From a virus, in IMG/VR virus record IMGVR_UViG_3300010397_000081, positions 1 through 26,740 of that record: a DNA stretch of 26,740 nucleotides; one strand, written 5' to 3'. The position numbers and the translations under genes are program-made. The notes beneath the pieces were generated by a model. The model had not been told where the DNA came from, did no database searches, and worked only from the letters and a program-made list of their open reading frames with translations. Positions within the stretch are counted from its first letter, which is position 1. Each line of letters opens with the position of its first letter. Below are positions 1,124 through 25,231 of the stretch, piece by piece.

Positions 1124-1135
1124 GGTTGTCGCTCC

Positions 1136-1806: not shown

Positions 1807-1820
1807 GGCGAACCCCTGTT

Positions 1821-3032: not shown

Positions 3033-3132
3033 TGCCTTGCCTTTCACTAGCGTCTGTCTTACGTGGACGCTTCGTGCGTTGGCAGCGACGGTGGCTCGCG
3101 ATGCGGAGCGGCTGTCGGGAGCGGTGGACTTC

Positions 3133-5064: not shown

Positions 5065-5067
5065 CGC

Positions 5068-6480: not shown

Positions 6481-6490
6481 CGGTGCCTCC

Positions 6491-9913: not shown

Positions 9914-9920
9914 GACGTTT

Positions 9921-9944
9921 CCCCGTCCGTCAAGGTGGACGGGG
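9921..9944 (-). promoter_or_regulatory. Hairpin covering the ribosome site of 9701-9913
   Basis: The arms CCCCGTCC (9921-9928) and GGACGGGG (9937-9944) form a perfect 8-bp stem with an 8-nt loop. In the minus-strand mRNA the 3' arm contains the GGGG of the ribosome site that precedes the ATG at 9913, so folding would hide it. Confidence 0.4.
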
Positions 9945-9982
9945 CCGCTGCCGATCGAGTCTCGTGCCATGACTGCGCGACC

Positions 9983-10135
9983 CCGTCCACTGTGTTCAAC
10001 GATCCGGTGTGGTTGCGGGGAACGGCCCCGATCGTGATCCGGCGTCAGACTCGTCGATCGGGGCCGTTCGCATTCAATGGGGAAACACTGAACAGCGTCG
10101 GCTGCCACGGCCGTGCCGTCCATTGTGTTCAACGA
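9983..10135. repeat. Direct 20-bp repeat flanking a 14-bp inverted repeat
   Basis: The 215-nt gap 9914-10128 is the largest gene-free stretch of the operon. The 20-mer CCGTCCAYTGTGTTCAACGA occurs at 9983-10002 and 10116-10135 with a single C/T difference. Between the copies a perfect inverted repeat, GAACGGCCCCGATC at 10020-10033 and its complement at 10056-10069, encloses 22 nt. The second copy overlaps the stop codon of the zinc-finger gene. In minus-strand RNA the hairpin follows that gene and could be a terminator or processing site; the duplication may record a deletion or insertion. Confidence 0.65.
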
Positions 10136-10593
10136 GCACGCTCCGCTTTCGGTAACGTGGCGAGCAGCGCGGCGACGTGATCGTAGTTGTGGAAGTTGCG
10201 ACGGTGTACGAGCATGCCTTGCCGGCTGGCGATCGCCGTGTCGCAGTCGGGGCATTGGGGCGGCTGCCGTACTTCCACTTTGTGTTTGCGACCGATGTGT
10301 GAAGCGAGGTAGATGTCCATCACTTCGTCGTCGCATGCGGGGCAGCGTGTCGGTGTCCTCTTCGGAGCGCTGCGACCCGAGTCGCCGTTGGGTGAGATGC
10401 GGCGTAGCAGCTCGTGCAGTTCGGCGACGGGCCGCACGTCGGCGGGGCATAGGTCGATGGTGCGCCGGATCGTCGCGCCGCCGTGCATGCCTGCGCGTCC
10501 TATCTCGACGGTGTAGCCGACGGCGTCGGCCGCGTCGACTTCCCCGCCGCACTGATCGCATTCGATCGTCTCGATGATCTGTTGTCGTCTCAT
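10129..10593 (-). CDS. Multi-zinc-finger protein (two C2H2 fingers)
   Basis: This 154-residue protein has an N-terminal CDQCGG pair with a later Cys (DLCPADVRP), then two C2H2-type fingers: RCPACDDEVM...SHIGRKH at about 88-111 and QCPDCDTAIA...VHRRNFH at about 117-139. Classic C2H2 fingers are uncommon in bacteria but do occur in actinophages; they suggest DNA binding. The start shares ATGA with the upstream stop and lies on a GTCCACATG motif. A regulator that binds the dispersed motif is one speculative idea. It is followed by the repeat/hairpin region, so it may end a transcript. Confidence 0.72.
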   Translation of the reverse strand: MRRQQIIETIECDQCGGEVDAADAVGYTVEIGRAGMHGGATIRRTIDLCPADVRPVAELHELLRRISPNGDSGRSAPKRTPTRCPACDDEVMDIYLASHIGRKHKVEVRQPPQCPDCDTAIASRQGMLVHRRNFHNYDHVAALLATLPKAERAR

Positions 10594-10874
10594 GTGGACG
10601 GTTGCTCCCACTTCGCTCGTTGCCGGATGTCGGCGAGCCGCAGCTCGGCCCGGTCGTCCTCGGACAGCCGGCCCATGCCGCGCCGCAGGTAGCCGTCGGC
10701 GTAGACGATGCGCCGGCTGACTTGGTAGCCACGCGTGTCGAGCAGCCGGATGCACACCGATTCACACTGCGCGCATTCGCGGTGCTCTTCGAAGCCGCCA
10801 CGTATCTTCCACGCGCGCAGTGGCCGCCACAGGTGGGCCCAGCTTCGGCATTCGGTGCCCACGTTTTCATCCAC
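10590..10874 (-). CDS. Small Cys-containing hypothetical protein
   Basis: This 94-residue protein contains HRECAQCESVCIRL near residues 31-43, a CxxC plus one Cys, and then a pattern common in actinophage small proteins: LLDTRGYQVSRRIVYADGYLRRGMGRLS. The C-terminal half is basic and helical (DDRAELRLADIRQRAKW). The start overlaps the upstream hydrophobic-peptide gene by 8 nt, and CACTGTGGATG places the dispersed motif directly on the start codon. Function unknown; zinc binding is inferred only from Cys spacing. Confidence 0.65.
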   Translation of the reverse strand: MDENVGTECRSWAHLWRPLRAWKIRGGFEEHRECAQCESVCIRLLDTRGYQVSRRIVYADGYLRRGMGRLSEDDRAELRLADIRQRAKWEQPST

Positions 10875-11004
10875 AGTGGAACCCTTCGACGATCATCACG
10901 ATGGTGAGCGTGACGATGACGGTTAGCGCGACGACCGCTTCGATGAGCAGCGCCACGAACAGCCCGAGCAGCAGCCGTGGCGGGCGCAGGTCTACCGGAT
11001 CCAC
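10867..11004 (-). CDS. 45-residue hydrophobic peptide, candidate holin
   Basis: A GTG start 12 nt inside the end of the peptidase gene opens a frame coding for VDPVDLRPPRLLLG followed by an almost unbroken hydrophobic region (FVALLIEAVVALTVIVTLTIVMIV) and ending EGFHCG. One long helix, or a hairpin broken at the single Glu, is possible. The position right after a cell-wall peptidase and the size make it a holin candidate, but many actinophage holins are larger and have 2-4 clear helices. No ribosome site is visible, so translation would depend on coupling. Confidence 0.5.
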   Translation of the reverse strand: MDPVDLRPPRLLLGLFVALLIEAVVALTVIVTLTIVMIVEGFHCG

Positions 11005-12131
11005 AGCGACACGAGCGACACGGCGAGAATGAGCACGGCGGCGACGAGCAGCCATGTGGACGGTTGCCGCCACGGCGACGGGGGCGGCTCGGCCCGGTGG
11101 GTGCGCGCCACGGACGCGGCGGGGAGCTGCCCGTACACGCCGGTGAGCGAGCCCCATCCGCTTTTGCCGCCGCCTTTCGACAGTGTGAAACCCCAGTACT
11201 GTCCGGCCCCGTGGGGTGTCGCCTCGTCGTCTGGCGCGCCCAGGCCGATGATGTTGACGGTTGTCCCTAGTGGATCCCACGCGGCGGAGAGCGTGCCGGG
11301 CACGATCACGCCGCCGAGCGTCTCCGATTTGCCGGTGCCGTTCCACAGTGCGTTCATGCCGCCGTCGGCGTACCAGTTGTGTTTGACGTTGCCGTCCGGG
11401 GCGACGTAGAAGATGTCTAGCCGGTCGCTGTCGTATGGGCAGTTGAGTATCACGGCCCCGTCTCCATTCGCCGATCCGAGCCATTGCGCGACGGTGTCTC
11501 CACGTAGGACGGACAGCATCGCTTCTTTGTTGGTTACGCTTTCCACCTGATCGCGCGATTCGCTCAGGTGGATGTGCCACAGGTGGGAGCTGTCCGATGT
11601 GCAGGCATAGCCGTACCGACAATCCCATCCCTCTACATAGGTGTCGACGTCGGCTTGTCCGTAGAATTCGCGCCAGCCGTCGAGCCGGGGGTCGTTGACG
11701 TCTTGTGCGGATGCGAGCAGCCGGCTCGTGTAGGTGGCGATGCGCGCATAGTTGCCGGACTGCGCTTCGGGGAATGTCCAGTCGTACCCGGCGGCTTTGT
11801 TGCCGGGCCCGCCTTTGTCGGGACTGTCCACAACGGAATAGTTGTTCGACGCGTTTTGGCTTCGCGTGTTGTGATAGCCAGGTTTCGATGCGTATGTGCC
11901 GCCCCATTGGGTGCCGGGCTCCAACGCGAGCAGCTGGTCGGCGAACCATGCGGACGCGTCGGTGATGTAGCTCGACGATCCACGTAGGACAGGATCGTTC
12001 GGCCCGATGCATCCGACGTCGCGTCGGTGCGGGGCCGGGCCGCCGCGCGGCTTTACGCGCCAGCGCAGCCATGCCGCGATCGCCAACAGCAGCACAACGA
12101 TGATCGCCGCGACGGCGGCCCAGCTTTCCAT
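10992..12131 (-). CDS. Membrane-anchored M15-like peptidase with lectin-like domain
   Basis: This 379-residue protein has a membrane helix at both ends (about residues 5-24 and 358-377). Between them a zinc-peptidase-like domain (60-200) carries YHNTRS (H87), GYDWTFPEAQ (D117), LDGWREFYGQADVDTYVEGWD and SSHLWHIHLSE (H186-x-H188). This resembles D,D-peptidase M15 metal sites and a family seen in actinophages. Residues 210-345 are repeats of beta strands (DIFYVAPDGNVKHNW, GQYWGFTLSKGGG) like lectin or propeller-type modules. It is likely to act on peptidoglycan while held in the membrane. The start is TCCACAATGG, again on the dispersed motif. A free endolysin would lack these anchors, so it could alternatively modify the host surface. 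Confidence 0.72.
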   Translation of the reverse strand: MESWAAVAAIIVVLLLAIAAWLRWRVKPRGGPAPHRRDVGCIGPNDPVLRGSSSYITDASAWFADQLLALEPGTQWGGTYASKPGYHNTRSQNASNNYSVVDSPDKGGPGNKAAGYDWTFPEAQSGNYARIATYTSRLLASAQDVNDPRLDGWREFYGQADVDTYVEGWDCRYGYACTSDSSHLWHIHLSESRDQVESVTNKEAMLSVLRGDTVAQWLGSANGDGAVILNCPYDSDRLDIFYVAPDGNVKHNWYADGGMNALWNGTGKSETLGGVIVPGTLSAAWDPLGTTVNIIGLGAPDDEATPHGAGQYWGFTLSKGGGKSGWGSLTGVYGQLPAASVARTHRAEPPPSPWRQPSTWLLVAAVLILAVSLVSLWIR

Positions 12132-12144
12132 TGTGGATTCCTCC

Positions 12145-12405
12145 CTAGGCGTCTTCGGCTGCCCGGCGGCGGCGGAACGCGCCGAGCAGGCTCGCGCCGG
12201 CGAGCAATAGCGCGGCCGCGATGAGCACGAACACGACGACGTCGGGCCCGGTCTTGGGCAGCGTGCCGCTGTCGGTGGGCGGCGGCGGGCTGGTGCTCGT
12301 TGTGGTGCTGGTGCTCGGCTGCCCGGATGGCGCGCCGTGCGGTGCCGGTGACGGCGAATCAGCGAGCAGCGTCGCCGTCGGCAGCGCGTCGAAGAACTCG
12401 AACAT
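12145..12405 (-). CDS. LPxTG cell-wall-anchored small protein
   Basis: This 86-residue protein ends with a textbook sorting signal: LPKTG (about residues 49-53), a hydrophobic helix (VVVFVLIAAALLLAGASLLGAF) and a basic tail (RRRRAAEDA). Before it lies a Ser/Thr/Pro-rich spacer (STSTTTSTSPPPPT), typical of wall-spanning linkers. The N-terminus (MFEFFDALPTATLLADS) is not a clear signal peptide, so the C-terminal helix may itself drive insertion, or the true N-terminus is unusual. A strong AGGAGG site precedes the ATG. Host sortase could link it to the wall. It lies directly before the membrane-anchored peptidase. Confidence 0.75.
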   Translation of the reverse strand: MFEFFDALPTATLLADSPSPAPHGAPSGQPSTSTTTSTSPPPPTDSGTLPKTGPDVVVFVLIAAALLLAGASLLGAFRRRRAAEDA

Positions 12406-12502
12406 GGATCCTCCTATGTTGACAGTCGCACCAGGTGGTGCGTGTGCCGCCCGGCTCGCCGCAGTGCTCGCCGGACGTGCATTCCTTGCAGACGAATCGC
12501 AT
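12359..12502 (-). CDS. Small zinc-knuckle protein (CxxC...WCDCQH)
   Basis: This 47-residue frame starts at an ATG immediately after the upstream stop codon. It encodes MRFVCKECTSGEHC and TTWCDCQHR: five cysteines in two groups plus His, a pattern often seen in tiny actinophage zinc proteins ('C-x2-C...C...WCDCQH'). Its last 15 codons overlap the beginning of the LPxTG gene in another frame, and its 3' end includes that gene's ribosome site. Function unknown; nucleic-acid or protein binding is possible. Confidence 0.6.
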   Translation of the reverse strand: MRFVCKECTSGEHCGEPGGTRTTWCDCQHRRIHVRVLRRAADGDAAR

Positions 12503-12733
12503 CTAGATCACTCCACTATCGACGAGCCGGATCCGCATGTCGGTATGGACAGCGGCGATCAACGCGATCAGCGCATCGAGCGGATCCGAACATCCCTCCA
12601 CTTCGTACACGAGCCGGACCCGGTACGTGGCCGGCGCGGAGTCCCCGTCCGCGCCGGCCACGCCGCCCCGACCGTCGAGCGCGCTGCAACCCCCAGCTTT
12701 GCGCTCCACATGATGACGGCCGGGAACGTTCAT
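12503..12733 (-). CDS. Small hypothetical protein
   Basis: This 76-residue protein is coupled to the upstream gene by an ATGA overlap; the start lies in GTCCACAATGA, a copy of the dispersed motif. After a basic N-terminus (MNVPGRHHVERKAGG) and a Gly/Ala linker, the second half reads TYRVRLVYEVEGCSDPLDAL, a helix (IALIAAVHTDM) and RIRLVDSGVI, suggesting a small alpha-beta fold. Similar patterns occur in actinophage hypothetical proteins, but I recognise no named family. Confidence 0.62.
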   Translation of the reverse strand: MNVPGRHHVERKAGGCSALDGRGGVAGADGDSAPATYRVRLVYEVEGCSDPLDALIALIAAVHTDMRIRLVDSGVI

Positions 12734-13254
12734 TGTGGACTCTCGATAGGAGTCGGGATCGAGAAGCTCGGCCATCCGGCGACGCGCGGGATCGGCTGAT
12801 CGTCGCGCCACGACAGCTGCCGGGCCGTCGAGCCGGTAACCCACAGACCCCACGCTTTAAGCATGATCCCCATTGTCCGCTGTGGACCGTCGGCCGGTGT
12901 CAGCTCGGCGAGCGCCCGCCGCATAGCGGTGCGCGGGTCGTCGTCGCCGACGGTCTCGTCGTCGAGCAGGAAGAAGCGCCGCACCACATCGGACGGCTGC
13001 CCGTCGTCGAGCAGCACGTACGCGACGGCCCCGGCGGCGTGCTCGTCGACGGCGCGGATCCGGCCGTGCAGCTCCCGCCCGTAGGCTCGGGCCACGCGGA
13101 GCAGCCGGTGCCGGGCGCGGATCAGTTCCACGGTGGACCGATGGTAGGTGTCGCGGACGCTGTCCCACTGGTAGGGCTTGACGTCGCGGGCGCGGTAGAG
13201 CGTGACGTACCGCGCGATGCTGTGCATTGGCGGATGGATCCGCTGTGTGTCCAT
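12730..13254 (-). CDS. Hypothetical protein, 174 aa
   Basis: The ATG at 13254 has AGGGA 7-8 nt upstream and lies in a CACAATGGAC copy of the dispersed motif. The N-terminal half is helical and basic (STVELIRARHRLLRVARAYGREL); then comes a strand and an acidic region (VAYVLLDDGQPSD, FFLLDDETVGDDDPRTAMRRAL). The C-terminal segment has Trp-rich LKAWGLWVTGSTA. No membrane helices or cysteines are present. It lies between the resolvase-like gene and a set of small proteins. I do not recognise the family; a regulatory or DNA-related role is only a guess from the neighbourhood. Confidence 0.65.
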   Translation of the reverse strand: MDTQRIHPPMHSIARYVTLYRARDVKPYQWDSVRDTYHRSTVELIRARHRLLRVARAYGRELHGRIRAVDEHAAGAVAYVLLDDGQPSDVVRRFFLLDDETVGDDDPRTAMRRALAELTPADGPQRTMGIMLKAWGLWVTGSTARQLSWRDDQPIPRVAGWPSFSIPTPIESPQ

Positions 13255-13296
13255 TGTGCTTCCCTCGTGGTGCCGGGCTGTTGTGCTGTGGCCGCC

Positions 13297-13680
13297 CTAT
13301 CCCTCAACGATGCGGCCACGTTCGGGTGACGTACGCGAATCGTGTTCGCGTACGAATGCGGCGAGCTGTGGCAGCCACAACCGGCCGGACATCGTCACGT
13401 ACCACTGGTTTGGCGAGCCACGGCCGGGCCGCTTGTGGATGACGGCCCCGGTCGCGTACGGCGACCGGTCCACGATCGTCTCCAGCTCGTCGACGTACTT
13501 GGAGAGCGTGCAGTCGCGTCTGTCCTTCGTGGACAGCACCAGCGGCAGGCCCTGGTGATCGGCGAAGTCAGACGGCCGTGGGTAGGGCCGGGCCGCCGGG
13601 TAGGTGGCGTACCCGTTGGCGGCGAGCCACAGCTCGACGGCCCGTTCGGCCCGGTAGCCTTTCGCGGTCGCGTAGCTCAC
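13297..13680 (-). CDS. Hjc-like Holliday junction resolvase/nuclease, altered ExK motif
   Basis: This 127-residue protein starts at a GTG sharing GTGA with the upstream stop. It matches the layout of phage Hjc-type PD-(D/E)XK nucleases: an N-terminal helix with GYRAERAVELWLAANGY, the first acidic residue in PSDFADHQG, a strand with the catalytic lysine (LVLSTKDRRD), the helix LSKYVDELE, then AVIHKRPGRG and QWYVTMSG. In the family the lysine belongs to an E-x-K triad; here it reads S-T-K, so a key acidic residue is missing or displaced. It would cut branched DNA after recombination or before packaging. The replication genes around it support a DNA role. Confidence 0.72.
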   Translation of the reverse strand: MSYATAKGYRAERAVELWLAANGYATYPAARPYPRPSDFADHQGLPLVLSTKDRRDCTLSKYVDELETIVDRSPYATGAVIHKRPGRGSPNQWYVTMSGRLWLPQLAAFVREHDSRTSPERGRIVEG

Positions 13681-13970
13681 AGCAGGATCACGCCGATCAC
13701 AATGGACAGCGCCACGACGAACACGAAGACGGCGGCGATGACGATCACGGCGAGCCGGCGCGACTGCTCGGCCGTCTCGTACACGTCGTACGCGAGGCCG
13801 TCGAGCCGCTCGTCGATCTGCCGGCTCCAGTCCCACACGAGCCAGTCGGTGCCGGACGCGTGGCCACTGAGCACGGCGGCCCGGCCGCCGTCGGCCATCG
13901 GCGAGCCGACGTCGTCCTCTTCGGACGGTGGCAGCTCCACCTGTGCCGGCTCGAAGCGAACATCTCTCAT
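13677..13970 (-). CDS. Tail-anchored membrane protein
   Basis: This 97-residue protein starts at an ATGA overlap with a good GGAGGA site. Residues 1-70 are soluble and acidic (ELPPSEEDDVGS), with a Trp/Arg helix (WLVWDWSRQIDERLDGLAYDVYE). A C-terminal hydrophobic helix (LAVIVIAAVFVFVVALSIVIGVILL) ends the protein, so it is probably tail-anchored with its N-terminus in the cytoplasm. Function unknown; such proteins can recruit replication complexes to the membrane or act in exclusion. Confidence 0.65.
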   Translation of the reverse strand: MRDVRFEPAQVELPPSEEDDVGSPMADGGRAAVLSGHASGTDWLVWDWSRQIDERLDGLAYDVYETAEQSRRLAVIVIAAVFVFVVALSIVIGVILL

Positions 13971-14170
13971 GATTCCTCCCGGTGTGTTCGGCCGGCGTGG
14001 CGGCAGCCGCACGAGCGCCACCGGACCCCGGCCAGTACCCAATACCAAACCTGATCCGTTCGTGGCTCCACGGCCGTCTCAGCGGGCCGTTCGGGCTCCT
14101 GCCAGATCTTGTCGACGCCGAGCGCGTCGACGAGCTGCCGGAACGTCATGACGGGGTCGCGACGGTTCAC
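13967..14170 (-). CDS. Small hypothetical protein
   Basis: This 67-residue protein starts at a GTG overlapping the helicase stop (GTGA). The middle is helical (MTFRQLVDALGVDKIWQEPE). Its C-terminus contains RSCGCRHAGRTH, a CxC with two His residues that could bind a metal. It is coupled to the ATPase gene before it and to the membrane-protein gene after it. Function unknown. Confidence 0.55.
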   Translation of the reverse strand: MNRRDPVMTFRQLVDALGVDKIWQEPERPAETAVEPRTDQVWYWVLAGVRWRSCGCRHAGRTHREES

Positions 14171-15534
14171 GGGCCGGCCCCGTTCGGGCTCGGCGCGTGA
14201 TCGATACACGCGACTGTCCACCATGGAGCGTAGAAACGTATCGCGTCACTTGAGTCACATTCGTAACATCGCCGTGGCGCGTTATCGATCGCCGCGTCTC
14301 TATCCATTGGGGACAGCGGCTCGGATCCCACTTCGCCACTTCGCCACGTGTTTGGGGCTATAGCCTTAGTACCCAAATCGGTGGCGAAGTGGCGTAATGG
14401 CCGTGCAACTTGCACGTTTTCGTCGTCCGATGTGGACGGCCGCGCCCACCTAGTTGACGCGTTTCCATCGACACCGATGAGCTTAATCAGCCCGGCGTCG
14501 GCGCGGGCCCGTTCGAGCGTCCGCTCCTTGAATCCGTCGTCTTTGCCGAGCGCGACGATCTCCTTCCACGTCTTCGGCCCGTCGGCGAGCACGTCGAGCA
14601 GAAACTCCCGTTCCATGGCGCGCACGCGCGCCTCCACGGTCTCGCCGTCGTCCACGGTGGAGCGCCGGCTCGGCCCGTCGAGCGCCTGCTGTGCGGTCAG
14701 CTCGGACACGCCGCCCCACGCGATGTACGGCGTCTCCCCGTCCGGTGTGGACTCGATCCGGAACATGATCGTCGGCGCGAGCCGCGCGATGTTGGATTTG
14801 ACGGCGGCGAGCAGCCGCCCGTCCGGCTCGTCGGGATCGCGGGCTACGGCGAAGCCGCATCGGAACGCGCCGATGAATGCGATCGATCCGTTGCCTCGAT
14901 AGATCGCCTTCACTCCGGTGCCGCCCTTGTTCAGATGCCGGACGACGATCACGGCGACGCCGGTGCGCTGCGCGAGCGCCTTCAGCGGCCACAGCGCCCG
15001 CCGCACCGACAGATCATTGTGGCTGTCCACATCGGACGCGAGGAACGCTGACAGCGGGTCGAGCACCACGATCCGGGCCCCGGTGGCCACGATCACCGCT
15101 TCCAACATGGACAGGTCGGCACCGAGCGTGAACGGCAGCTCGGGCATAGCCCCGCTAGTGATGAGCGTGACGTTGTCGAGCGCGGCTTGCGCCACCTGCA
15201 GCCTCGGCACGATCGTGTCTTCTTCGTCGTCTTCGGCGCTGATCATGATCACGTGATACGGGCCGTCATGTTCGAAGCCGTCCGGCATCGGCCGACCGCT
15301 CGACCATCGGGCCGCCAGATCCAACGTCATCAACGATTTGCCGTCGCCCGGATCGCCTTCCACGCTGGACAGTTTGCCGAACGGTATCCGGCCCTTCCAT
15401 GCCCACCGGACGCGGCGCGGCTTCACTGTGGACGCTCGCACGCCGGAGTGTTGGAGCAGCTCGTCCGTCTCGCTTAGCTCGGCGCTTTCCCACGCCGCCC
15501 ATTCTTCGGTGCCGACGGCGAACGGGTTACTCAT
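14167..15534 (-). CDS. RecA/RepA-type AAA ATPase (AAA_25), likely replicative helicase
   Basis: This 455-residue protein contains a RecA-fold domain of the hexameric RepA/DnaB-like type: Walker A GDPGDGKS (residues 60-67), FEHDGPYHVIMISAEDDEEDTIVPRL (92-111), Walker B IVVLDPLSAF (155-164) and RHLNKGG (199-205), a sensor-like motif. The C-terminal third has a winged-helix-like segment (WKEIVALGKDDGFKERTLERARADAGLI), then a linker and a Cys/His cluster (CYEC at 423-426, CIDH at 443-446) that looks like a zinc ribbon. It is the probable helicase or initiator ATPase of this phage; no polymerase or primase is present, so replication must use host enzymes. The start overlaps the upstream gene by 8 nt. 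Confidence 0.85.
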   Translation of the reverse strand: MSNPFAVGTEEWAAWESAELSETDELLQHSGVRASTVKPRRVRWAWKGRIPFGKLSSVEGDPGDGKSLMTLDLAARWSSGRPMPDGFEHDGPYHVIMISAEDDEEDTIVPRLQVAQAALDNVTLITSGAMPELPFTLGADLSMLEAVIVATGARIVVLDPLSAFLASDVDSHNDLSVRRALWPLKALAQRTGVAVIVVRHLNKGGTGVKAIYRGNGSIAFIGAFRCGFAVARDPDEPDGRLLAAVKSNIARLAPTIMFRIESTPDGETPYIAWGGVSELTAQQALDGPSRRSTVDDGETVEARVRAMEREFLLDVLADGPKTWKEIVALGKDDGFKERTLERARADAGLIKLIGVDGNASTRWARPSTSDDENVQVARPLRHFATDLGTKAIAPNTWRSGEVGSEPLSPMDRDAAIDNAPRRCYECDSSDAIRFYAPWWTVACIDHAPSPNGAGP

Positions 15535-15793
15535 GACTAGCCCGAGCGACTTCGATATCCATCACACGGATGAGTCGCTGAACGATCTGTTTCGCGCTGC
15601 CGCCCATGCCTTCCACCGGTTCCGCTAGCGCGCGGTCCATGGCCGCGCTGGCCGCCCGCAGTCCACACAGGAATCCGTACTCGTGTGCGGCCGCGATTTC
15701 GTCTTCGGTCTGTCGGTGCCACGCCATCGGGAGGCCGGGCGCGCCCGTGCTGTTGCGGGCAGCTGTGTCGGGGGCGCGCCCGGCGCTCGTCAC
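15527..15793 (-). CDS. Small hypothetical protein
   Basis: This 88-residue protein begins at a GTG overlapping the upstream stop (GTGA). After a Ser/Ala/Gly N-terminal region it has a charged helix (EDEIAAAHEYGFLCGLRAASAAMDRAL) and a C-terminal helix (AKQIVQRLIRVMDIEVARAS). An in-frame ATG in LPMAWHRQTE could be the real start, giving 66 residues. It precedes the ATPase gene and overlaps it by 8 nt, so it may be a helicase-loader-sized partner, but this rests on position only. Confidence 0.55.
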   Translation of the reverse strand: MTSAGRAPDTAARNSTGAPGLPMAWHRQTEDEIAAAHEYGFLCGLRAASAAMDRALAEPVEGMGGSAKQIVQRLIRVMDIEVARASHE

Positions 15794-16086
15794 GCTCGCG
15801 CCAACGCGCAGGCTTCGCTGTGGACAATGTCGCCGTGCTTCCATCGCAGCGTGTCGCTGCGATGCGTGTGTGCGGCGTAGATGTACGGGCAATCGTTGAA
15901 CGACCATGGCATCGGCTCGGGCCAGCCGTCGCACCGGCCGACCACAATGGCCAGCGTCCCGTCGTCGAGCCGGACACGCAGCCCGTCGGGATCGCCTTTG
16001 CCGCGCTCGATCGCCCACCACAGTCCTTCGTAGACGCCGATCATCGCGATCCGGTCCGCGAAATGGATCAGCTCCTCGGGGCTCAT
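15790..16086 (-). CDS. Hypothetical protein, 98 aa
   Basis: The start overlaps the upstream stop (ATGA). The protein opens with a helix (MSPEELIHFADRIAMIG), then GLWWAIERGKGDP and a beta region, LRVRLDDGTLAIVVGRCDG, followed by the aromatic-rich PWSFNDCPYIYAAH and RWKHGDIVHSEAC. Two cysteines and four histidines in the last 50 residues could bind a metal. No named family is recognised. Its tight coupling in the replication operon suggests a DNA metabolism or regulatory role, without direct evidence. Confidence 0.58.
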   Translation of the reverse strand: MSPEELIHFADRIAMIGVYEGLWWAIERGKGDPDGLRVRLDDGTLAIVVGRCDGWPEPMPWSFNDCPYIYAAHTHRSDTLRWKHGDIVHSEACALARA

Positions 16087-16304
16087 GCCAGCTCCATCCC
16101 GTCCTCGAACACGAAACGGGTCCGGCCGTCATGCCCGTGCACGCGCTGCGCGGCGAGAATGTCCGACCACACCGCTGTGGACCGATCCTGTCCGCGCCAG
16201 CGGATCACCGTCACATCGTCGTCGAACACGACACCGTCAGCCACGACACCGGTGCCGCTCACGCCGGTGACGTCGTCGTCCCGGACAAGTTGGAATGTGT
16301 GCAT
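16083..16304 (-). CDS. Small conserved phage protein, 73 aa
   Basis: A strong AAGGAGA site lies 8 nt before the ATG at 16304, which rules out the longer upstream frame. The sequence is almost all beta (MHTFQLVRDDDVTG, GVVFDDDVTVIRWRG, STAVWSDILAAQRVHGHDGRTRFVFEDG). The pattern V-I-R-W-R-G...STAVW...VHGHDG recurs in actinophage and actinobacterial hypothetical proteins as I remember them. Function unknown. It ends in an ATGA overlap with the next gene. Confidence 0.65.
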   Translation of the reverse strand: MHTFQLVRDDDVTGVSGTGVVADGVVFDDDVTVIRWRGQDRSTAVWSDILAAQRVHGHDGRTRFVFEDGMELA

Positions 16305-16317
16305 CGCGATCGTCTCC

Positions 16318-16842
16318 TTAGAACGGTGGCTCGTCGAGCGGCAGCGGCTGATCCTTGTCGAGCGGCTTCGTGCCGCCGTCCAGCGGCGGCGTCGACTGCC
16401 GGGCCGGCGCGGCCGGGCCATTCTCCGGCCGTTCGCATTCCTCCCGGTACACGCGCACCGCGTCGGTGCGGAGCTGCTCCAGCCGTGGCCCGTTGCCGGC
16501 GATCCACTGCTGCGCCATCTGCTCATCGAAACCAGCGCCCGGCTCGTACACAACGCCCTTGCCGTTGCTCGTCTTCGCGATGCGGCACAGCGCTACCTCG
16601 CCGCCGTCCATGTCGGCGAACTGCCCGGCCGACTTGCGCCACAACATCACGTTGTCGAACGCGACACCGGTCGAACGCCCCGACAGCATGAGAATCGTGC
16701 CGCGCACGGCCGGCTGCACGCCGTACTCCTTCGTTGTCACTTGTGGATGGAACCCGCCATGCACCCAGAGGCACACTTCGCCGGCATGCTGGAGCCCGTC
16801 GTATACGGCGGGCGGGTCGGGCTTACGGAGCGGATAGTTCAT
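16318..16842 (-). CDS. SSB-like single-strand DNA-binding protein with acidic tip
   Basis: This 174-residue protein starts at an ATG with AAAGGGG 6 nt upstream. Residues 1-120 are beta-rich and look like an OB-like core (GEVCLWVHGGFHPQVTT, VRGTILMLSGR, VAFDNVMLWRKSAGQF, EVALCRIAKTSNGKGVVYEPG). Residues 125-174 are Pro-rich and end in PLDKDQPLPLDEPPF, closely resembling the acidic SSB tip (D-x-x-PF) that recruits repair and replication proteins. Location with the Cas4-like nuclease and ATPase fits. The N-terminal fold is not identified with certainty. The longer upstream frame runs antisense to the plus-strand gene and is rejected. Confidence 0.7.
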   Translation of the reverse strand: MNYPLRKPDPPAVYDGLQHAGEVCLWVHGGFHPQVTTKEYGVQPAVRGTILMLSGRSTGVAFDNVMLWRKSAGQFADMDGGEVALCRIAKTSNGKGVVYEPGAGFDEQMAQQWIAGNGPRLEQLRTDAVRVYREECERPENGPAAPARQSTPPLDGGTKPLDKDQPLPLDEPPF

Positions 16843-16869
16843 GAGTAACCCCTTTCGAAAGTCGTGCGG

Positions 16870-17430
16870 ATGTGGCTGCCAAATAGTGATCGGTACGCAC
16901 CGATCGATCAGGTCGCGCCATGGGACGGCCCATCCCTGCGTGCCGTCCGCATTCGGCGGCATCAAGCCCCCGGCATCCACAAATCCAGCGCAGACTTCCT
17001 CGGACTGGTCTGGCCGGAGATAGGCATCCGATTCGGCGGCGTCGTTCCTGTTGAGACAGTTAACTCGAACGCGTTCGCACGCGAGCTGGATATAAGGTCC
17101 GGCATCGATAACTGGGTGATCGGCGTCGACGGCCACATGTACGGATTGGCGTCGCGTGTCCAATGGACAGACAACAGCTTCGACACATTCACGATCCGCG
17201 TGCGCTCGCGCTACGGGCGCGCCACTGAGTACGACAAGCGCAGACGCGAAATCGCGACCGACGGCGCGCTGCGACCCCACTACGTGTGTCAAGCGTATGT
17301 GTCGCGGGATCGGCTTCGGCTCGTCGCCGCCGCCATGGCACCGATGAGAGACGTTATCGCGGCAATCGACGACAACGTCGAGTCGATATGCCGAGCGCAT
17401 CGGGTACACCCATTGCCTTGCCTAACATGA
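16870..17430 (+). CDS. Plus-strand moron-like gene, unknown function
   Basis: This 186-residue frame lies alone on the plus strand inside a 10-kb minus-strand operon. ATG at 16870 has GAAAG 8 nt upstream; GTG at 16864 is an alternative. The protein looks real: no low complexity, aromatic-rich and evenly mixed (WPEIGIRFGGVVPVETV, RSGIDNWVIGVDGHMYGLASRVQW, FDTFTIRVRSRYGRATEYDKRR, RPHYVCQAYVSRD). Codons such as AAT, ATA, AGA, AGG and TTG are more frequent than in its neighbours. The pattern GID...ASRVQ...FTIR recalls very loosely the D...(E/Q)xK layout of PD-(D/E)XK folds, but no full motif is present. Its 3' end overlaps a minus-strand gene by 77 nt. Confidence 0.68.
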   Translation: MWLPNSDRYAPIDQVAPWDGPSLRAVRIRRHQAPGIHKSSADFLGLVWPEIGIRFGGVVPVETVNSNAFARELDIRSGIDNWVIGVDGHMYGLASRVQWTDNSFDTFTIRVRSRYGRATEYDKRRREIATDGALRPHYVCQAYVSRDRLRLVAAAMAPMRDVIAAIDDNVESICRAHRVHPLPCLT

Positions 17431-17500
17431 TCTGTCGCCACGTCGCGCCGGCAATAGTGCCGACCGTGATCGTGTATTCCTCCGCTAGTTCGCGATCCAT
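17354..17500 (-). CDS. Short hypothetical protein, probably truncated by the moron
   Basis: An excellent GGAGG site 7 nt before the ATG, and a gap of only 3 nt to the nuclease stop, show that this start is used. The first 37 residues look like a normal protein (MDRELAEEYTITVG, ATWRQIMLGKAMGVPDALG); the last 11 (ISTRRCRRLPR) read the complement of the plus-strand gene and look artificial. The gene therefore seems to have lost its original 3' part. TITVGTIAGATWRQIMLG could be the start of a small DNA-binding protein, but nothing can be assigned. Confidence 0.6.
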   Translation of the reverse strand: MDRELAEEYTITVGTIAGATWRQIMLGKAMGVPDALGISTRRCRRLPR

Positions 17501-17503
17501 CGG

Positions 17504-18274
17504 TCAGCCTCCGCTCGCGCCCGGACAGCTCGTGCGCTGTGCAGGATGGCCGGGCAGGTAATACGGGCACCACCGGCACAGCGCCGATGGCGAGGCCTCC
17601 ACCGTGGACGGATCAATCGCGGCGACCGTCTCCAGCTCGGCCCCGACGAGCGCGTTGATCCCGTTCACGGCCTCGTCGGCGACGCGCGGATCCAGTGTCG
17701 TGCGCCAGACCCACATGTCATCGAGCGTGCCGTCGGTGGGCAGGTATGCGAGCGCGAGCGCGCGCACCATCTCCCCGGCGGCGACAAGCCCGGCACCGTA
17801 GATCTGTAGCTGCGTCACGTACGCGCTCGGCGGGCCGGACTGCTGCACACGCTTGACCTTCGCGAGCGTGGTTGTCTTCCAATCGATGACTGTCCCCGTT
17901 AGACGGTCGAACAGGTCGACGGTGCCGGGCACGCCCCGATAGCGGACGGGATGCTCGACGAGAAAACGGCCGGACATGCCGTCAAGCGCGAGGATGATCC
18001 CGGCGAGCGCCAGATGTGTGCCGCTGCCGACGAGCGCGCGCAGCGGGTCGGGCACGTTGGATGGCCGTATGCCGGCGACTTTGAACGCGAGTTTGCGGCG
18101 GCACACTTCACCGGCTTGCGATGCGCCGATGGCGCGTTGTTTGCTGCGCGCGCTGGTGATGGCTCCGATGTGGACGAGCGACCGTAGCGCCGCTTCGAGC
18201 GCGTACGCCTCCGGGTCGGCTGGCGGCCGGGCGTCGACGGCGGCCGGGGCGCGCAGTGTCACGGTGTCTGGCAT
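17504..18274 (-). CDS. Cas4-like PD-(D/E)XK exonuclease with Fe-S cysteines
   Basis: This 256-residue protein matches phage Cas4/RecB-type nucleases. C58 (GEVCRRK) plus C233, C236 and C250 form the one-plus-three cysteine pattern of a [4Fe-4S] cluster. GSGTHLAL at 83-90 is the helix motif, GTVDLFD at 117-123 holds the first catalytic Asp, VIDWKTT at 129-135 is the D-x-K motif, and QLQIYGAG at 155-162 is the QxxxY-like motif. The start at 18274 (MPDTVTLR) overlaps the upstream gene by 16 nt; a longer frame would overlap far more. It probably supplies recombination or end-processing for replication with the SSB-like protein and the resolvase. It is not accompanied by CRISPR genes. Confidence 0.85.
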   Translation of the reverse strand: MPDTVTLRAPAAVDARPPADPEAYALEAALRSLVHIGAITSARSKQRAIGASQAGEVCRRKLAFKVAGIRPSNVPDPLRALVGSGTHLALAGIILALDGMSGRFLVEHPVRYRGVPGTVDLFDRLTGTVIDWKTTTLAKVKRVQQSGPPSAYVTQLQIYGAGLVAAGEMVRALALAYLPTDGTLDDMWVWRTTLDPRVADEAVNGINALVGAELETVAAIDPSTVEASPSALCRWCPYYLPGHPAQRTSCPGASGG

Positions 18275-18498
18275 CGGTGCCGCCGGTTGTAGTAGTACGT
18301 GCCGTCGTAGTAGAGCGCGGTGTCGAAGTGCACGACGATGCTCGTCAACACGATCCGCTTGTAAACCATCCGCTCGCAGGCGATGCACGGCTCGGGTGTG
18401 GGTTTGATCTGGTGGATCCGCACGGATTCGCTGTCGATGCGGCGGGGCCAGTCGGCGTCGACGGACACGGCCGGATCACGCGGCCGGGGCCGGATCAT
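18259..18498 (-). CDS. Small hypothetical protein, 79 aa
   Basis: The start overlaps the upstream stop (ATGA). The first 30 residues are Arg/Pro-rich (MIRPRPRDPAVSVDADWP), followed by PCIACERMVYKR (CxxC), a beta segment IVLTSIVVHFDTALYYD, and a Tyr-rich end (GTYYYNRRHRC). Cys pair plus a terminal Cys suggests a small metal site. It separates the first early gene from the nuclease. Function unknown. Confidence 0.6.
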   Translation of the reverse strand: MIRPRPRDPAVSVDADWPRRIDSESVRIHQIKPTPEPCIACERMVYKRIVLTSIVVHFDTALYYDGTYYYNRRHRCQTP

Positions 18499-18803
18499 GA
18501 CACGGCCCGGTGTACGCGCGTGAGCCGCGTGTACACGTAGCTGCGCAGGTATTCGCGGTATTTGAACGGCTCGATCGCCTCTAGCCGTTTCACGTCGAAG
18601 CGGCTGCCGCGCACTGTGGACAGCTCCAGCACCGGCTCGCCGTCGAGCTGCGCTTCGTCGGCGTCAGCCATCGACAGGAACGTGATGAGCGCCTGCTTGG
18701 CTTTCTCGCGGCGCTGCTCGGCGGCGGCGATCGTTTCGGATTCTTCTACATAGGACTTGTACGCGTCGCGGGCGTAGTCGTCCAACTCGACTGTCTTTGG
18801 CAT
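18495..18803 (-). CDS. First gene of the early operon, hypothetical
   Basis: This 102-residue protein starts at the ATG at 18803, which has GGGGGA 5 nt upstream; the longer frame to 18872 has no such site. The sequence begins MPKTVELDDYARDAYKSY, followed by a charged coiled-coil helix (EESETIAAAEQRREKAKQALITFLSMA), then a beta part (GEPVLELSTVRGSRFDVKRLEA) and the end FKYREYLRSYVYTRL. Such small helical proteins often precede Cas4-like nucleases in actinophages. It may be an accessory factor, but function is unknown. Confidence 0.65.
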   Translation of the reverse strand: MPKTVELDDYARDAYKSYVEESETIAAAEQRREKAKQALITFLSMADADEAQLDGEPVLELSTVRGSRFDVKRLEAIEPFKYREYLRSYVYTRLTRVHRAVS

Positions 18804-19189: not shown

Positions 19190-19213
19190 AAACCGTTGTG
19201 CCGCAACGGGTTT
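19190..19213. repeat. Imperfect inverted repeat upstream of attP
   Basis: AAACCGTTG (19190-19198) and CAACGGGTTT (19204-19213) are complementary except for one bulged base and are separated by 5 nt. It lies 30 bp upstream of the predicted attP and may be a binding site for a regulator or accessory factor. No gene spans it with confidence. Confidence 0.45.
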
Positions 19214-19240
19214 CAAGCGTTACGAGACTGTGACTTGCCT

Positions 19241-19290
19241 AGTAGGTCCAAGTCGCACTTGCCGTTTGGCATACTCGACTTGGACCGACA
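19241..19290. other. Predicted phage attachment site attP (serine-integrase type)
   Basis: A perfect 11-bp inverted repeat, GGTCCAAGTCG (19245-19255) and CGACTTGGACC (19276-19286), encloses exactly 20 bp. Within the spacer, GCCGTTTGGC is itself symmetric in its outer bases and is centred on the same point, giving TT at 19265-19266 as the candidate crossover dinucleotide. As I remember it, the phiC31 attP also has inverted arms 20 bp apart around a central TT. The site lies between the lysogeny promoter and the divergent control region, 0.5 kb upstream of a large serine integrase, as expected for attP. The host target cannot be read from this site. Confidence 0.72.
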
Positions 19291-19320
19291 ACCCCTACCA
19301 GCACAGATAGGCAACCATAC
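19285..19320 (+). promoter_or_regulatory. Candidate integrase-operon promoter, leaderless
   Basis: CCGACA (19285-19290) and TAGGCA (19308-19313) are 17 nt apart, and the ATG at 19321 begins 8 nt after the -10 box. No ribosome site precedes the ATG, so transcription probably starts at or next to it. The -35 box overlaps the right arm of attP, so integration would bring host DNA close upstream and could change integrase expression. Confidence 0.45.
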
Positions 19321-19554
19321 ATGCGATACAAGATCACGCGGACGCGGCAGGTGCCCGACATCACGATCGAGCCCGGCAACCCGATCGGCCGGCTGTCCGG
19401 CTGGCACGACGAGACGACGACGCTCGTCGTCGACGGCCACGACGCGCTGCGCCGCGAGCTGGACGGCGAAGCGGTGCCCGTGCCGCAGCAGCGGCAGGAT
19501 GCGGGCCGCTTCGGCGACAGCCGCTACTCCGTGGCATGGGAGCCGACGGCATGA
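19321..19554 (+). CDS. Small hypothetical protein at head of integrase operon
   Basis: This 77-residue protein begins MRYKITRTRQVPDITIEPG, has a beta-rich middle (TTTLVVDGHDALRRELDGE) and a polar end (QQRQDAGRFGDSRYSVAWE). There is no membrane helix and no cysteine. The start appears to be leaderless. It is coupled to the next gene by a 4-bp overlap and so belongs to the integrase operon. A role in lysogeny, for example as a recombination accessory or directionality factor, is possible but unsupported. Confidence 0.6.
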   Translation: MRYKITRTRQVPDITIEPGNPIGRLSGWHDETTTLVVDGHDALRRELDGEAVPVPQQRQDAGRFGDSRYSVAWEPTA

Positions 19555-19754
19555 GCTGGCGCTTTACTCGCTGGCACGTGGCGATCCTGGCAGTCGCCGC
19601 CGTCGCGGTCGCCGTGTCCGTGGCCACGTCGATCCCCAGTCGCGAATGCGAGCGATGGAACGCGCTGCACAAGCGCGCGCTCATCAACGAGGCCGTCACC
19701 GGCGATTCGGCTGCCGCCGACGCCGTCCGCGCACTACGTCCGGAAGGTTGCTGA
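19551..19754 (+). CDS. Small membrane or exported protein upstream of integrase
   Basis: This 67-residue protein starts at an ATGA overlap. The N-terminus is a classic signal-anchor: MSWRFTRW followed by HVAILAVAAVAVAVSVATSI. The rest (RECERWNALHKRALINEAVTGDSAAADAVRAL) is helical, with one Cys near residue 33 and another at the end, and probably faces outside. Its place between attP and integrase means it is carried at the edge of an integrated prophage; a superinfection-exclusion role would fit but is inference only. Confidence 0.62.
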   Translation: MSWRFTRWHVAILAVAAVAVAVSVATSIPSRECERWNALHKRALINEAVTGDSAAADAVRALRPEGC

Positions 19755-19756
19755 TC

Positions 19757-21328
19757 ATGAATTTCGCTCACGAAGTCGAACGGCTCGTCGCCGAGCTGCG
19801 CAAGCGCGACGCGGATCCGTCCTATGCGGACGCTCCGATCGAAGACGTGTACGGCCGGATCTCGCACGTCAATACGGGCAGCGACAACGACAAGCCGATC
19901 GTGCAGATCTTCTACCTGCTGACGGACATGCTCGGCCGAGACGTCCGGCTCGGCGACACGTTCATGGACACCAACCGGTCGGCGTGGAAGGACGACGGGC
20001 CGCGCCCCGGATGGGACGCCGTCGTAGCGAGAGTCGCGGCCGGCACCGTGGCCGGCGTCCGGTCCGTGATGGTGGACCGGATGATGCGCCAGACGGGACA
20101 GCTCGTCGACATGATCCGCGCGTTCGAACGTAACCATGGTCGCGACGTCGGCTTCACCGTCTTCGACTTGGACGCGGACCGTTCGTACAACACGAGCCGG
20201 CCGGACGACACGCGCGACTTGGAAGGGCGCGTGAGCGCAGCGAAACATGACAGCGCAATTAAGTCGCGGAAGATCCGGCGCGGCAACCACGCGCGCCGGC
20301 TCGCCGGCAACGGCCGCAACGGGGCGGCCCCGTTCGGGCATCGGTGGAACGTCGCCGACGTCGACGACGCGCAGCTTGCCGTGGAGCGCGCCGCGATCGC
20401 ATGGGGCATCGTGCGGATCACCGACGGCGGCACGTGGGGTGAAGTGGCGCGCCGGTGGAATGAGGATGGCGTGTTGCCGCGCCGGCACCCTCGGTGGCAT
20501 TCGCAGAACGTGCGGGCGTGTCTCACGCTGGCGCGGCATGCGGGGCTGCTCATACACGCCGGTCACATCGTCGGCACGATCGTCAGCGTCGACGGCCCGA
20601 TCGTGACGTTGCCGCAGTGGCACGCCTTCGACAATGTGGTGTCGAAGCGGCAGCGGGGCCGCCAGCGGGGCGACAAGGTGTCCCGCTACTACGCGTCGGG
20701 GACGGTGTGGTGCGGCGGCACACGCGACGATGGCACGCCGTGCGAGACGCTGTTGGTGGGCACCGCACAGTCGGGTGTGTACGCGGACACCGGCGAGCGG
20801 CGGTACGGGTACAAGTGCCCGCCGCGCGGCTGCCGTGGCGTCACTGTGGACGGCCGGGCCGTGGAGGAACACGCGTCGTTCCTCACCGGCAAGGCGATCG
20901 TGGCCGGCGACAACATGGCGCTGCTGGCGCACGTCGGGCACGACGACCGGCTCGTCGAGCTGGACAAGCTGATCGCGGACGCGGAGTTGGCGATCGACAA
21001 CAAGGAGCGGCAGCGTGACGCGGCGACGCACCCGTCGCGGCGTGAGCGGTTCGTGGTGCAGCTCGTCGACGCGGAGGCCCGCCTGTCTGCGCTGCTGACC
21101 GAACGGGACGGGTTGCATGAGACGGTGCGCCGGGAGCGGCTGAAGCCGTCCGATGTGGATGAGCTGTCCGCGCTGTGGGATAGCCCGACGACGCCGGCCG
21201 CGAAGCGTCGCACGATCGTGCGGCAGTGTGTGCCGGGCGGCTTCTACGTGCGGCCGGTGGGTAAGGGTGCGCGGCTTCGCGGCGAGGCGATCTTCACGCG
21301 CTTCTACACGAAGGGCGGCGACGCGTGA
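19757..21328 (+). CDS. Large serine integrase
   Basis: This 523-residue enzyme recombines attP with a host attB. The catalytic serine is probably S36 in VYGRISHVNT, after an N-terminal extension of about 30 residues that is longer than usual. The resolvase domain continues with DTNRSAWK, GPRPGWDAVV, SVMVDRMMRQTGQLVDMI and the E-helix (LEGRVSAAKHDSAIKSRKIRRGNHARRLAGNG). NGAAPFGHRW opens the recombinase domain; the zinc ribbon uses WCGG, PCET and KCPPRGCRG (about residues 315-360). A coiled coil follows (LDKLIADAELAIDNKERQR). GGAAGG lies 9 nt before the ATG. It is coupled at its 3' end to the next gene by GTGA. Confidence 0.93.
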   Translation: MNFAHEVERLVAELRKRDADPSYADAPIEDVYGRISHVNTGSDNDKPIVQIFYLLTDMLGRDVRLGDTFMDTNRSAWKDDGPRPGWDAVVARVAAGTVAGVRSVMVDRMMRQTGQLVDMIRAFERNHGRDVGFTVFDLDADRSYNTSRPDDTRDLEGRVSAAKHDSAIKSRKIRRGNHARRLAGNGRNGAAPFGHRWNVADVDDAQLAVERAAIAWGIVRITDGGTWGEVARRWNEDGVLPRRHPRWHSQNVRACLTLARHAGLLIHAGHIVGTIVSVDGPIVTLPQWHAFDNVVSKRQRGRQRGDKVSRYYASGTVWCGGTRDDGTPCETLLVGTAQSGVYADTGERRYGYKCPPRGCRGVTVDGRAVEEHASFLTGKAIVAGDNMALLAHVGHDDRLVELDKLIADAELAIDNKERQRDAATHPSRRERFVVQLVDAEARLSALLTERDGLHETVRRERLKPSDVDELSALWDSPTTPAAKRRTIVRQCVPGGFYVRPVGKGARLRGEAIFTRFYTKGGDA

Positions 21329-21576
21329 GCCGGCCGCTGGAGACGATCACGGGCCGGGAGCTGGCGTTGGCGCTGCTCGACGAGCAGGCGGCGGCGGCGC
21401 GGCCGCTGACGTTGGACGACGCGCTGCGCTACATCGGGGCGGCGTGGGTGTGCGGCGGCTGCTCGTCGCTGTGGCTGGCAGGTTCGGCGTGCCGGCTGTG
21501 TCACCGGTGCCGGTGCGGGGATCGGGTCGGCGTGGACGGGCAGCCGTGCCCGGTGTGCGACCACCGGCTCGACTAG
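21325..21576 (+). CDS. Cys-rich small protein coupled to integrase
   Basis: This 83-residue protein starts at a GTG overlapping the integrase stop. The N-terminal half is helical (GRELALALLDEQAAAARPLTLDDALRYIG); the C-terminal half has eight cysteines in the pattern CGGC, CRLCHRCRC and CPVC, so it probably forms two zinc ribbons. Tight coupling to the integrase suggests a shared role, perhaps modulation of recombination. Known serine-integrase directionality factors vary widely in fold, so no firm call can be made. It is followed by a terminator hairpin. Confidence 0.68.
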   Translation: MSRPLETITGRELALALLDEQAAAARPLTLDDALRYIGAAWVCGGCSSLWLAGSACRLCHRCRCGDRVGVDGQPCPVCDHRLD

Positions 21577-22985: not shown

Positions 22986-24185
22986 CTACTTTTCGAATCC
23001 GATTATCACGCGATCGCATGCGCCGCAGATAACGGCTAGCGCGTCGGACGGCACCGGCACGTCGATCGCTATCCCGCTGTTGCCGCAACCGTCGGTATCA
23101 CAGACGACTGTATGGGTCGGCGTGTTGTCGTCTACGGTGGACGGCTCGGCACGGCCGGGGCCGGACGCCGATGTCATCTGCGTCGCCACCCAATGCACGA
23201 CAAGCCCCGTGGCAGCGGTCGCACCAGGGTTATATGCCTTCGCCACAAACGATGTGAGCGACGTGGAGCCGTCCGACCCACTGGTGGCGTAGCCGTTGGT
23301 GGTCGCCGCACCGGTGGTTATCACCGGCGCTTGCGTGAAGCGACCGGCCGGATAGGTGACCACAACCGAACCGCCCGTGTCGGGGTTGCGGTCGGCTATG
23401 GCTGCCTTGCCGGCCGCCATCGCGAACGGCACCGACGGCCCCGGCGGTCCGGGGACGCCTTGAATTCCTTGGATTCCTTGGTCGCCTTTGACGCCTTGGA
23501 TTCCCTGCTGACCGGTGTCGCCTTTGACGCCTTGGATTCCCTGAATACCTTGGATACCTTGGGATCCCTGCGCGGCGAGCACACTCCAATACGTTGGCGA
23601 TGTCGCGGGTGGATGGTTCGCGCCGGCCAGGATCGCAATGTACGAGCTGCCGCCGACAGACACGGCATCGTCGACGGCGTAGGAGGTCGCGGAGGACCAC
23701 GCGCCGCGCCATATCAAACCTTCCGCGCCGGGCGGTCCGGGCACAGTGGAGTCCGCGCCGGGCGGGCCGGCGGATCCTTGTGCGGCGAGAATATTCCAGT
23801 ACGTCGGCGACGCTGCGGGTTGATGGTTTGTACCGGCAGCGATCGCAATGTATGAGCTGCCGCCATCGGATACCGCGTCGTCGATGGCGTACGCAGTCGC
23901 GGCCGACCATGGGCCGCGCCATGCCAACCCTTCGGGGCCGGGTGGTCCGGTGCCGGCACCAGCGTTTCCCACCATGCCGATCGCGAGCGCGCTGTCCCGG
24001 TCGAGCAGCACGGTCACGTTCTCGCCGACGATCGCGGTGAAGCCGCCGAGCGGCACGCCGGGCATCGGCCCGCCCGGCAGCAACACGTCCAGTGTGGACG
24101 CGTGCACGGCGGTAACGGTGCCGGTGCGCATGATAACGGCGCGTTCGTTACGCGCGTACGGGTATTCGTCTTCGGGCCGTGTCAT
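22986..24185 (-). CDS. Modular tail fibre: tandem carbohydrate-binding-like repeats, collagen stalk, Cys4 tip
   Basis: This 399-residue protein starts by an ATGA overlap. Order: an N-terminal baseplate-like beta domain (1-80: [37 protein letters not shown]), two tandem modules of about 50 residues ([20 protein letters not shown] and [20 protein letters not shown]) resembling carbohydrate-binding modules of the CBM5/12 type, a collagen stretch ([19 protein letters not shown]), a beta-rich head ([13 protein letters not shown]), and finally [10 protein letters not shown] plus [13 protein letters not shown]. It is the probable host-recognition fibre. The Gly-X-Y part shares [13 protein letters not shown] with the capsid-module collagen-like protein. 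Confidence 0.8.
23572..23927 (-). repeat. Internal duplication within the tail-fibre gene
   Basis: Two DNA segments of about 150 bp, at roughly 23572-23718 and 23780-23927, encode near-identical modules (WRG(P/A)WS(A/S)AT(A/S)YA(I/V)DDAVS and (H)xPA(A/T)SPTYW). They are separated by a short collagen-like linker. The DNA copies differ at many silent positions, so the duplication is not very recent. Confidence 0.75.
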
Positions 24186-25231
24186 AGCAGCCGCCTTAGT
24201 GTGACGGCAGTGGCGAGCGACGGCACCGCGAGCGTGACCGCCCGCACCATGTACGTGAGCCCGAGGTATTCGACGACGTCGCCGGACTCCAACCACGGTG
24301 CGGGCAGGATCGGCATCGACTCGTAACTGTCCAGCTCGGACAGTCGGGCGCGCAGCAGGTCGGCGGCGAGCGTGTCGGCTTGCGCTTGCGTAGTGGCCGC
24401 GTCGCCGTTCTGCCGGTCGGTGACAACGTACGGCCGGTACCAGGGCGGCGGTGCGACGCCGGTGATCGCGGCCGCATTGGCTGCGCCGATGAGTCCGACG
24501 GTGTCGGAGCCGCGTGTGACGAGCACCCGCGCGTCGGTGGGTGCGCGGACGTGATGGCTGGTGCCGCCGTCGGCGACGCGCCGTTCGACGATCGCGGCCG
24601 GCGCGGGCGGTGTGGCCGCGCGCACCAGGGCGGCGACGTCTCCGTTGTCGGCGAAACGCAGCGCCACGCCGAGCGCGTCCGCAGTGGACAGGCAAGTGTC
24701 CCAACGGCCGGCCCCGAATTCGGCGACGGTGGCGAGCGGCACCGGCAGCGCCGGCACCGCCGACACGTCAGTCGTGCGTGACAGCGCGAGCACGCACGCG
24801 TCGGCGACGAGCTGGCGCAGTGTGCCGGACAGGACCGTGTCGGCCTCGTACGGCCGGCCGTTGACGATCTCGCCGGGATCGGCGGCGGTGATGACGGCCC
24901 CGCCGGTGGACGACAAGTCTTCGGCGATATCGGTGACGCACAGCACCGGCAGCCGGTAGATGATCGGCTGCAGTGTTTGCACACCGACGGTGGCGCGGAT
25001 CCACATCCCGGCGGCAAGCCACGACGGGATCGGCGCGGTGCGTAGCGTCATCGAACGCGGCACCGCCTGTGACGCGTCGTCGCGTAGCTCGCCGTCCACT
25101 GTGGGTAGCTGCGCGAGCGGTGCCGTGTTCGGGTCTTGCGGCTGCTGTTCCCACACGTCGACGGTGAGCGCGACGGCGACGCTGGTGATCCGCTGGCGGC
25201 CGCCGGGCGGCGGGTTGACGGGCGCTCTCAC
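24182..25231 (-). CDS. Tail-associated protein (Tal-like, DUF5047)
   Basis: This 349-residue protein starts at a GTG overlapping the upstream stop (GTGA). N-terminal strands ([34 protein letters not shown]) and the sequence between [34 protein letters not shown] and the C-terminal [21 protein letters not shown] follow the pattern of actinophage minor tail proteins often annotated DUF5047. This type sits at the tail tip between the Dit-like ring and the fibre. Position supports the call. No peptidase motif is visible. Confidence 0.75.

Follow-up and report, generated by a model that had tools for sequence, protein, structure and literature searches.

The window analysed here, 26,740 bases long, makes up an entire IMG/VR record. 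Between positions 413 and 18803 it carries 32 called open reading frames (ORFs), all on the minus strand, and a single plus-strand gene, here termed P0001, flanked by an exonuclease gene and by a gene that position and sequence lead us to guess is single-stranded-DNA-binding-like (ssb-like). The features referred to in the text are as follows:

413-1123, minus strand: major tail protein, at one end of the record
16318..16842, minus strand: ssDNA-binding-like (ssb-like) gene, downstream flank, its place beside the exonuclease gene conserved in records L011-L013
16843..17503, no strand assigned: extra segment of 661 nt from exonuclease stop to ssb-like start; the two flanking genes overlap in L011
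16857..16861, plus strand: possible ribosome-binding site GAAAG, 8 nt before the ATG, predicted from sequence
16870..17430, plus strand: P0001, ATG at 16870-16872, stop at 17428-17430, 186 aa
17053..17238, plus strand: putative active-site codons E62 (17053), D74 (17089), D80 (17107), R96 (17155), Q98 (17161) and K123 (17236)
17354..17500, minus strand: small ORF of 48 aa (MDRELAEEYTITVGTIAGATWRQI...), with GGAGG ahead of it inside the exonuclease end, overlapping P0001 tail to tail
17504..18388, minus strand: exonuclease (PDDEXK_1; PHROG exonuclease E 5e-39), flanking the insert on its minus-strand upstream side
19196-21576 (strong part 19321-21576), plus strand: block made of a serine-integrase-like gene and small ORFs
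start at 19196 or 19748, plus strand: serine-integrase-like gene (PF00239 (Resolvase) E 4e-7; PHROG integrase E 3e-22)
19321-19554 and 21325-21576, plus strand: small ORFs in the integrase block
26056-26652, minus strand: tape-measure fragment, at the other end of the record

The preliminary description had P0001 standing alone and opposite to its neighbours. This holds from 413 to 18803, where it is the sole plus gene, but a second plus-strand block lies at 19321-21576. A minus ORF at 19361-21118 was rejected as a gene, codon score and integrase match both marking it as a shadow of the plus gene. The phage is probably temperate, since it carries the serine-integrase-like gene. Possibly the record represents a nearly complete genome, circularly permuted and lacking mainly tail genes. 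Collagen-repeat proteins are encoded in the tail or structural region at 3150-3974 and 22986-24704, the latter also containing a carbohydrate-binding module (CBM_5_12). An 86-aa protein encoded at 12145-12405 (minus strand) showed a match to the LPXTG cell-wall anchor (PF00746 E 2.6e-6), which is odd for a phage and may hint at a Gram-positive host.

The minus frame antisense to P0001 is open from 16318 to 17409, across most of the gene, and codon statistics alone could therefore not settle the strand. It was settled by homology: an HMM built from the ten relatives described below, with P0001 left out, was compared with all 427 stop-to-stop segments of at least 30 aa in the six frames of the window, and matched the P0001 frame with 126.4 bits (E 2e-38) while no other frame was matched (runner-up E 2.4 among the 427 segments). 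The 186-residue frame, called convincing on first reading, is thus borne out, and this comparison identifies P0001 as a real gene. Its codon choice differs as had been claimed, AAT, ATA, AGA, AGG and TTG making up 4.8% of its codons vs. 1.5% of those in nine reference genes on the minus strand (p = 0.003 by Fisher's test, the five codons having been chosen post hoc), and its synonymous-codon score of 0.09 falls under those of all nine reference genes (0.13-0.39). The GAAAG ahead of the ATG sits within a palindrome, TTTCGAAA, of which the opposite strand reads GAAAGGGG ahead of the ssb-like gene. A search of positions 15500-18500 found no sigma-70-like promoter, and terminator-like sites were no commoner than chance, so that we could assign neither element to P0001 itself; no RNA structure was detected at its start (z +1.3).

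The extra segment holds P0001 and the 48-aa minus ORF that overlaps its tail. The records L011, L012 and L013 share the neighbouring genes, with exonuclease identities of 58, 54 and 47%, respectively, and no member of the P0001 family was found in any of the three. In L011 the exonuclease and ssb-like genes overlap (..CACCGAAAGGACACCGCTGTGACCTATCCG..) and the junction is empty, while it is occupied by two ORFs of 99 and 169 aa in L012 (6648-7453) and by ORFs of 218 and 55 aa in L013 (6781-7660), all oriented as the flanking genes and unrelated to P0001. Since the content of this junction differs from phage to phage, P0001 is most simply read as a foreign insert and a newcomer there, in support of the initial idea of acquired cargo. 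Direct repeats of more than 7 nt were not found near the insert ends. The ssb-like gene showed no family match and a scan for further relatives of it found none. The 48-aa ORF, also with no family match, looks like the start of a helix-turn-helix protein (LAEEYTITVGTIAGATWR), a remnant, possibly of the gene into which P0001 was inserted. With other ORFs at the same place in L012 and L013, the junction is a possible hot spot for cargo.

A tblastn search with P0001 retrieved only HCTV-1 gp144 and HCTV-16 gp149 (E 4e-4 and 5e-4), and scans for close relatives of P0001 found nothing. We made use of a DNA pattern derived from the spacing D-x11-G-x-A-x-R-V-x8-T-F-T, which is identical in P0001 and the Haloarcula virus protein, and scanned it through IMG/VR and GTDB genomes together with two further patterns. 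Ten other distinct family members were recovered. A Myxococcales MAG supplied one of these (L033), and the remaining nine come from viral records (L005, L006, L008, L009, L010, L035, L036, L037 and the Haloarcula virus protein); a further candidate, L034, was rejected as a chance motif match. Independent tblastn searches starting from L010 (E 5e-10) and L009 (E 1e-13) also reached HCTV-1 gp144. The pattern GID...ASRVQ...FTIR...TEYDKR, which the preliminary description had thought might define a family, does so, the motif having found all IMG/VR members. Since the relatives recovered lie in other contexts, homologues are not always tied to this operon. Identity among members is roughly 22-45%, yet twelve residues are invariant in the alignment of the 11 members (A5), namely P49, E62, D74, G78, D80, G92, R96, T106, F107, T108, K123 and P136, and Q98 is conserved in at least 90% of them. 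Searches of Pfam, PHROGs, NCBIfam and PADLOC gave no significant match to the family at the thresholds used. On these comparisons the family is viral and undescribed.

The copy in the window departs from its relatives at both ends. Residues of about 36-177 match the family, the match ending at profile position 148 of 179, so that the last 31 positions (149-179), with a conserved F-x-V-x-W segment, are missing, and residues 1-35 form an N-terminal extension with no counterpart in the family (an endolysin origin for this extension was rejected, no match being found). P0001 also lies on one of the longest branches of a tree that could not place it. As the C-terminal segment is lost, P0001 may be decaying rather than working cargo; its sequence is probably that of a decaying or altered gene, and that it has any activity seems doubtful. 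One rival explanation, which concerns P0001 alone and is compatible with the restriction-type explanation of the family given below, is that it is a decaying fragment brought in by illegitimate recombination and has no present function. The lost C-terminus, the unmatched N-terminus, the long branch, the want of a promoter-like site and the overlap of its tail with the small ORF all argue for this. Against it, P0001 runs through 186 codons with no stop or frameshift, keeps all 12 invariant residues and has a possible ribosome-binding site, and we place the decaying-fragment explanation a little short of an even chance.

The fold was examined on the full-length protein of L009, for which a model of good quality was obtained (pLDDT 88, pTM 0.85), the model of P0001 itself being weaker (pLDDT 70). 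The best viral match of the L009 model was an uncharacterised Salinibacter phage protein (E 5.5e-6, TM 0.60), with a NO VEIN-domain phage protein and SSV2 ORF211 among the others. Its PDB matches include D212 (2W8M; prob 0.80, TM 0.38), HincII and MvaI, none of them individually significant (the best PD-(D/E)XK match had E 0.033 and TM 0.38, and no match reached E <= 0.001). For the P0001 model, what we take to be PD-(D/E)XK enzymes account for at least 28 among the 50 best PDB matches (13 HincII entries; none significant alone). The order of elements in the L009 model fits an alpha-beta-beta-beta-alpha-beta core. The L009 model thus weakly resembles PD-(D/E)XK nucleases, and modelling makes a nuclease fold likely for the family.

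More specifically, D80 opens one strand, R96-V-Q98 follows sixteen residues on in the next strand, and K123 lies in the following helix. In EcoRV, D74 and D90 have the same spacing as D80 and R96. No canonical PD-(D/E)XK, HNH, GIY-YIG or PLD motif is present, since the (D/E)XK position reads R-V-Q, with D80-x15-R96-V-Q98 replacing D-x(n)-(D/E)XK. With the acid of (D/E)XK absent, E62 and K123 would have to serve. The acidic and lysine residues E62, D74, D80 and K123 are invariant in the family, and we propose E62, D74, D80, R96, Q98 and K123 as putative catalytic residues.

In eight of the ten other members (L005, L008, L009, L010, L033, L035, L036 and L037) the gene is found directly 3' of an N6/N4 DNA methyltransferase gene (PF01555), in a METHYLTRANSFERASE coupling that overlaps the end of that gene by 8 or 11 nt, or in L033 follows it after a 1-nt gap. 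The coupled methyltransferases form one clade, with about 45-66% mutual identity in the catalytic region; the 20 best-ranked matches in phage records to one of them reached at most 28.4% identity. Across about 190 Myxococcota genomes, the methyltransferase clade and the partner co-occur in one genome and neither occurs elsewhere. In L006 a methyltransferase lies 3.6 kb away, and in HCTV-1 none of the coupled type was found. No methyltransferase of this clade was found in the window record either, and the phage probably does lack it, since the missing part would be mainly tail genes if the genome is circularly permuted. The L036 record (G008, 26 kb) has three PF01555 matches at 11.6-15.8 kb.

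Coupling to a methyltransferase clade points to a restriction-like nuclease activity. It would also fit a second rival explanation, that the family serves the methyltransferase as an accessory or specificity subunit and that its nuclease-like fold, catalytically dead, is used to bind DNA; the 8-11 nt gene overlap suggests translational coupling, and the canonical (D/E)XK motif is missing. Five charged residues nevertheless stay unchanged among members that are roughly 22-45% identical, as would those of an active site, solitary copies occur in HCTV-1 and the window with no such methyltransferase, and the partner diverges faster than the coupled methyltransferase, as restriction enzymes usually do relative to theirs. 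We therefore consider an accessory role fairly unlikely and slightly favour a restriction-type function for the family, which most likely cuts DNA that does not bear the mark of the virus.

HCTV-1 gp144 (AGM12001) and HCTV-16 gp149 are sequence homologues of P0001 that are recorded as 'hypothetical protein'. Like P0001, gp144 is solitary. It sits in a run of small plus genes, is full-length, has its immediate neighbours on its own strand and shares 26% identity with P0001. Unlike the window phage, HCTV-1 carries 7-deazaguanine pathway genes, those for QueC, QueD, QueE and QueF. All viruses of the HCTV-1 family are reported to encode the preQ0/G+ pathway, and DNA so modified, which was detected in viruses including HVTV-1, is reported to be resistant to type II enzymes (PMC8651126). 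The same paper describes apparent restriction-modification pairs in other archaeal tailed viruses and suggests that these degrade the DNA of the host or of competitors (PMC8651126). As the pathway is present and such DNA resists type II enzymes, a solitary nuclease would be tolerable in HCTV-1.

Overall, we propose, at about even odds, that P0001 is the orphan and rearranged version of a viral protein of nuclease fold, which in its relatives is joined with a DNA methyltransferase into a module of two genes. Where the module is complete, the methyltransferase would mark the DNA of the virus itself and its PD-(D/E)XK-like partner would cut unmarked DNA, be it that of the host chromosome or, during lysogeny, that of competing phages, while in HCTV-1 the 7-deazaguanine would give protection in place of methylation. 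In the temperate window phage, a family gene would have been inserted backwards between two replication genes, without methyltransferase or C-terminal strands but with its invariant charged residues kept, and P0001 would be a passenger in decay or, alternatively, an exclusion protein in attenuated form. Weighing against this proposal are the absence of any PDB match significant by itself, the weak model of P0001, the R-V-Q in place of the canonical motif, the truncation, long branch and missing methyltransferase of P0001, the methyltransferase at 3.6 kb in L006, and the fit of the coupling to an accessory subunit as well. That P0001 is instead a working immunity or exclusion 'moron', as the preliminary description suggested, and acts otherwise than by DNA cleavage fits a single inverted insert of foreign codon use in a temperate phage but is very unlikely, as no PADLOC family was matched and as the pairing of its relatives with methyltransferases, together with their nuclease-like fold, suggests that the target is DNA. 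The widest form of our proposal, a new class of viral nucleases whose non-standard active site (E, D, R/Q, K) serves to destroy DNA without the virus's mark (methyl or 7-deazaguanine) and which persists in temperate phages in the form of an orphan exclusion gene, is speculative and, taken whole, unlikely.

These findings offer a testable function for what isolated archaeal viruses carry as a 'hypothetical protein', add to viral restriction-modification a family absent from four profile libraries, and show a phage junction that is repeatedly used for cargo. If the nuclease is active, modified viral DNA together with the P0001 family would amount to a general strategy of take-over or exclusion in bacterial and archaeal viruses.

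Three known systems offer a comparison. As in type II restriction-modification, the family pairs an N6/N4 methyltransferase with a small, faster-diverging protein of predicted nuclease fold, and eight of the ten other members have such a cognate methyltransferase while P0001 and the HCTV-1 protein do not; the family differs in being viral, in having R-V-Q for (D/E)XK, in matching no Pfam, NCBIfam or PADLOC model and in that its cleavage is predicted. D212, the most convincing solved structural match (2W8M, prob 0.80), is likewise a small viral protein, and has been called a putative nuclease of PD-(D/E)XK fold (PMC4187194). It is unlike the family in its 8% identity and TM of 0.38 and in resembling Holliday junction resolvases. 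To our knowledge, D212 has no link to a methyltransferase. Lastly, P0001 differs from prophage morons in being truncated and in that neither a promoter nor a terminator belonging to it was found, but resembles them as a single inverted gene in an integrase-bearing phage, at a junction that relatives leave empty or fill with other genes, and lies between two genes that are adjacent in L011.
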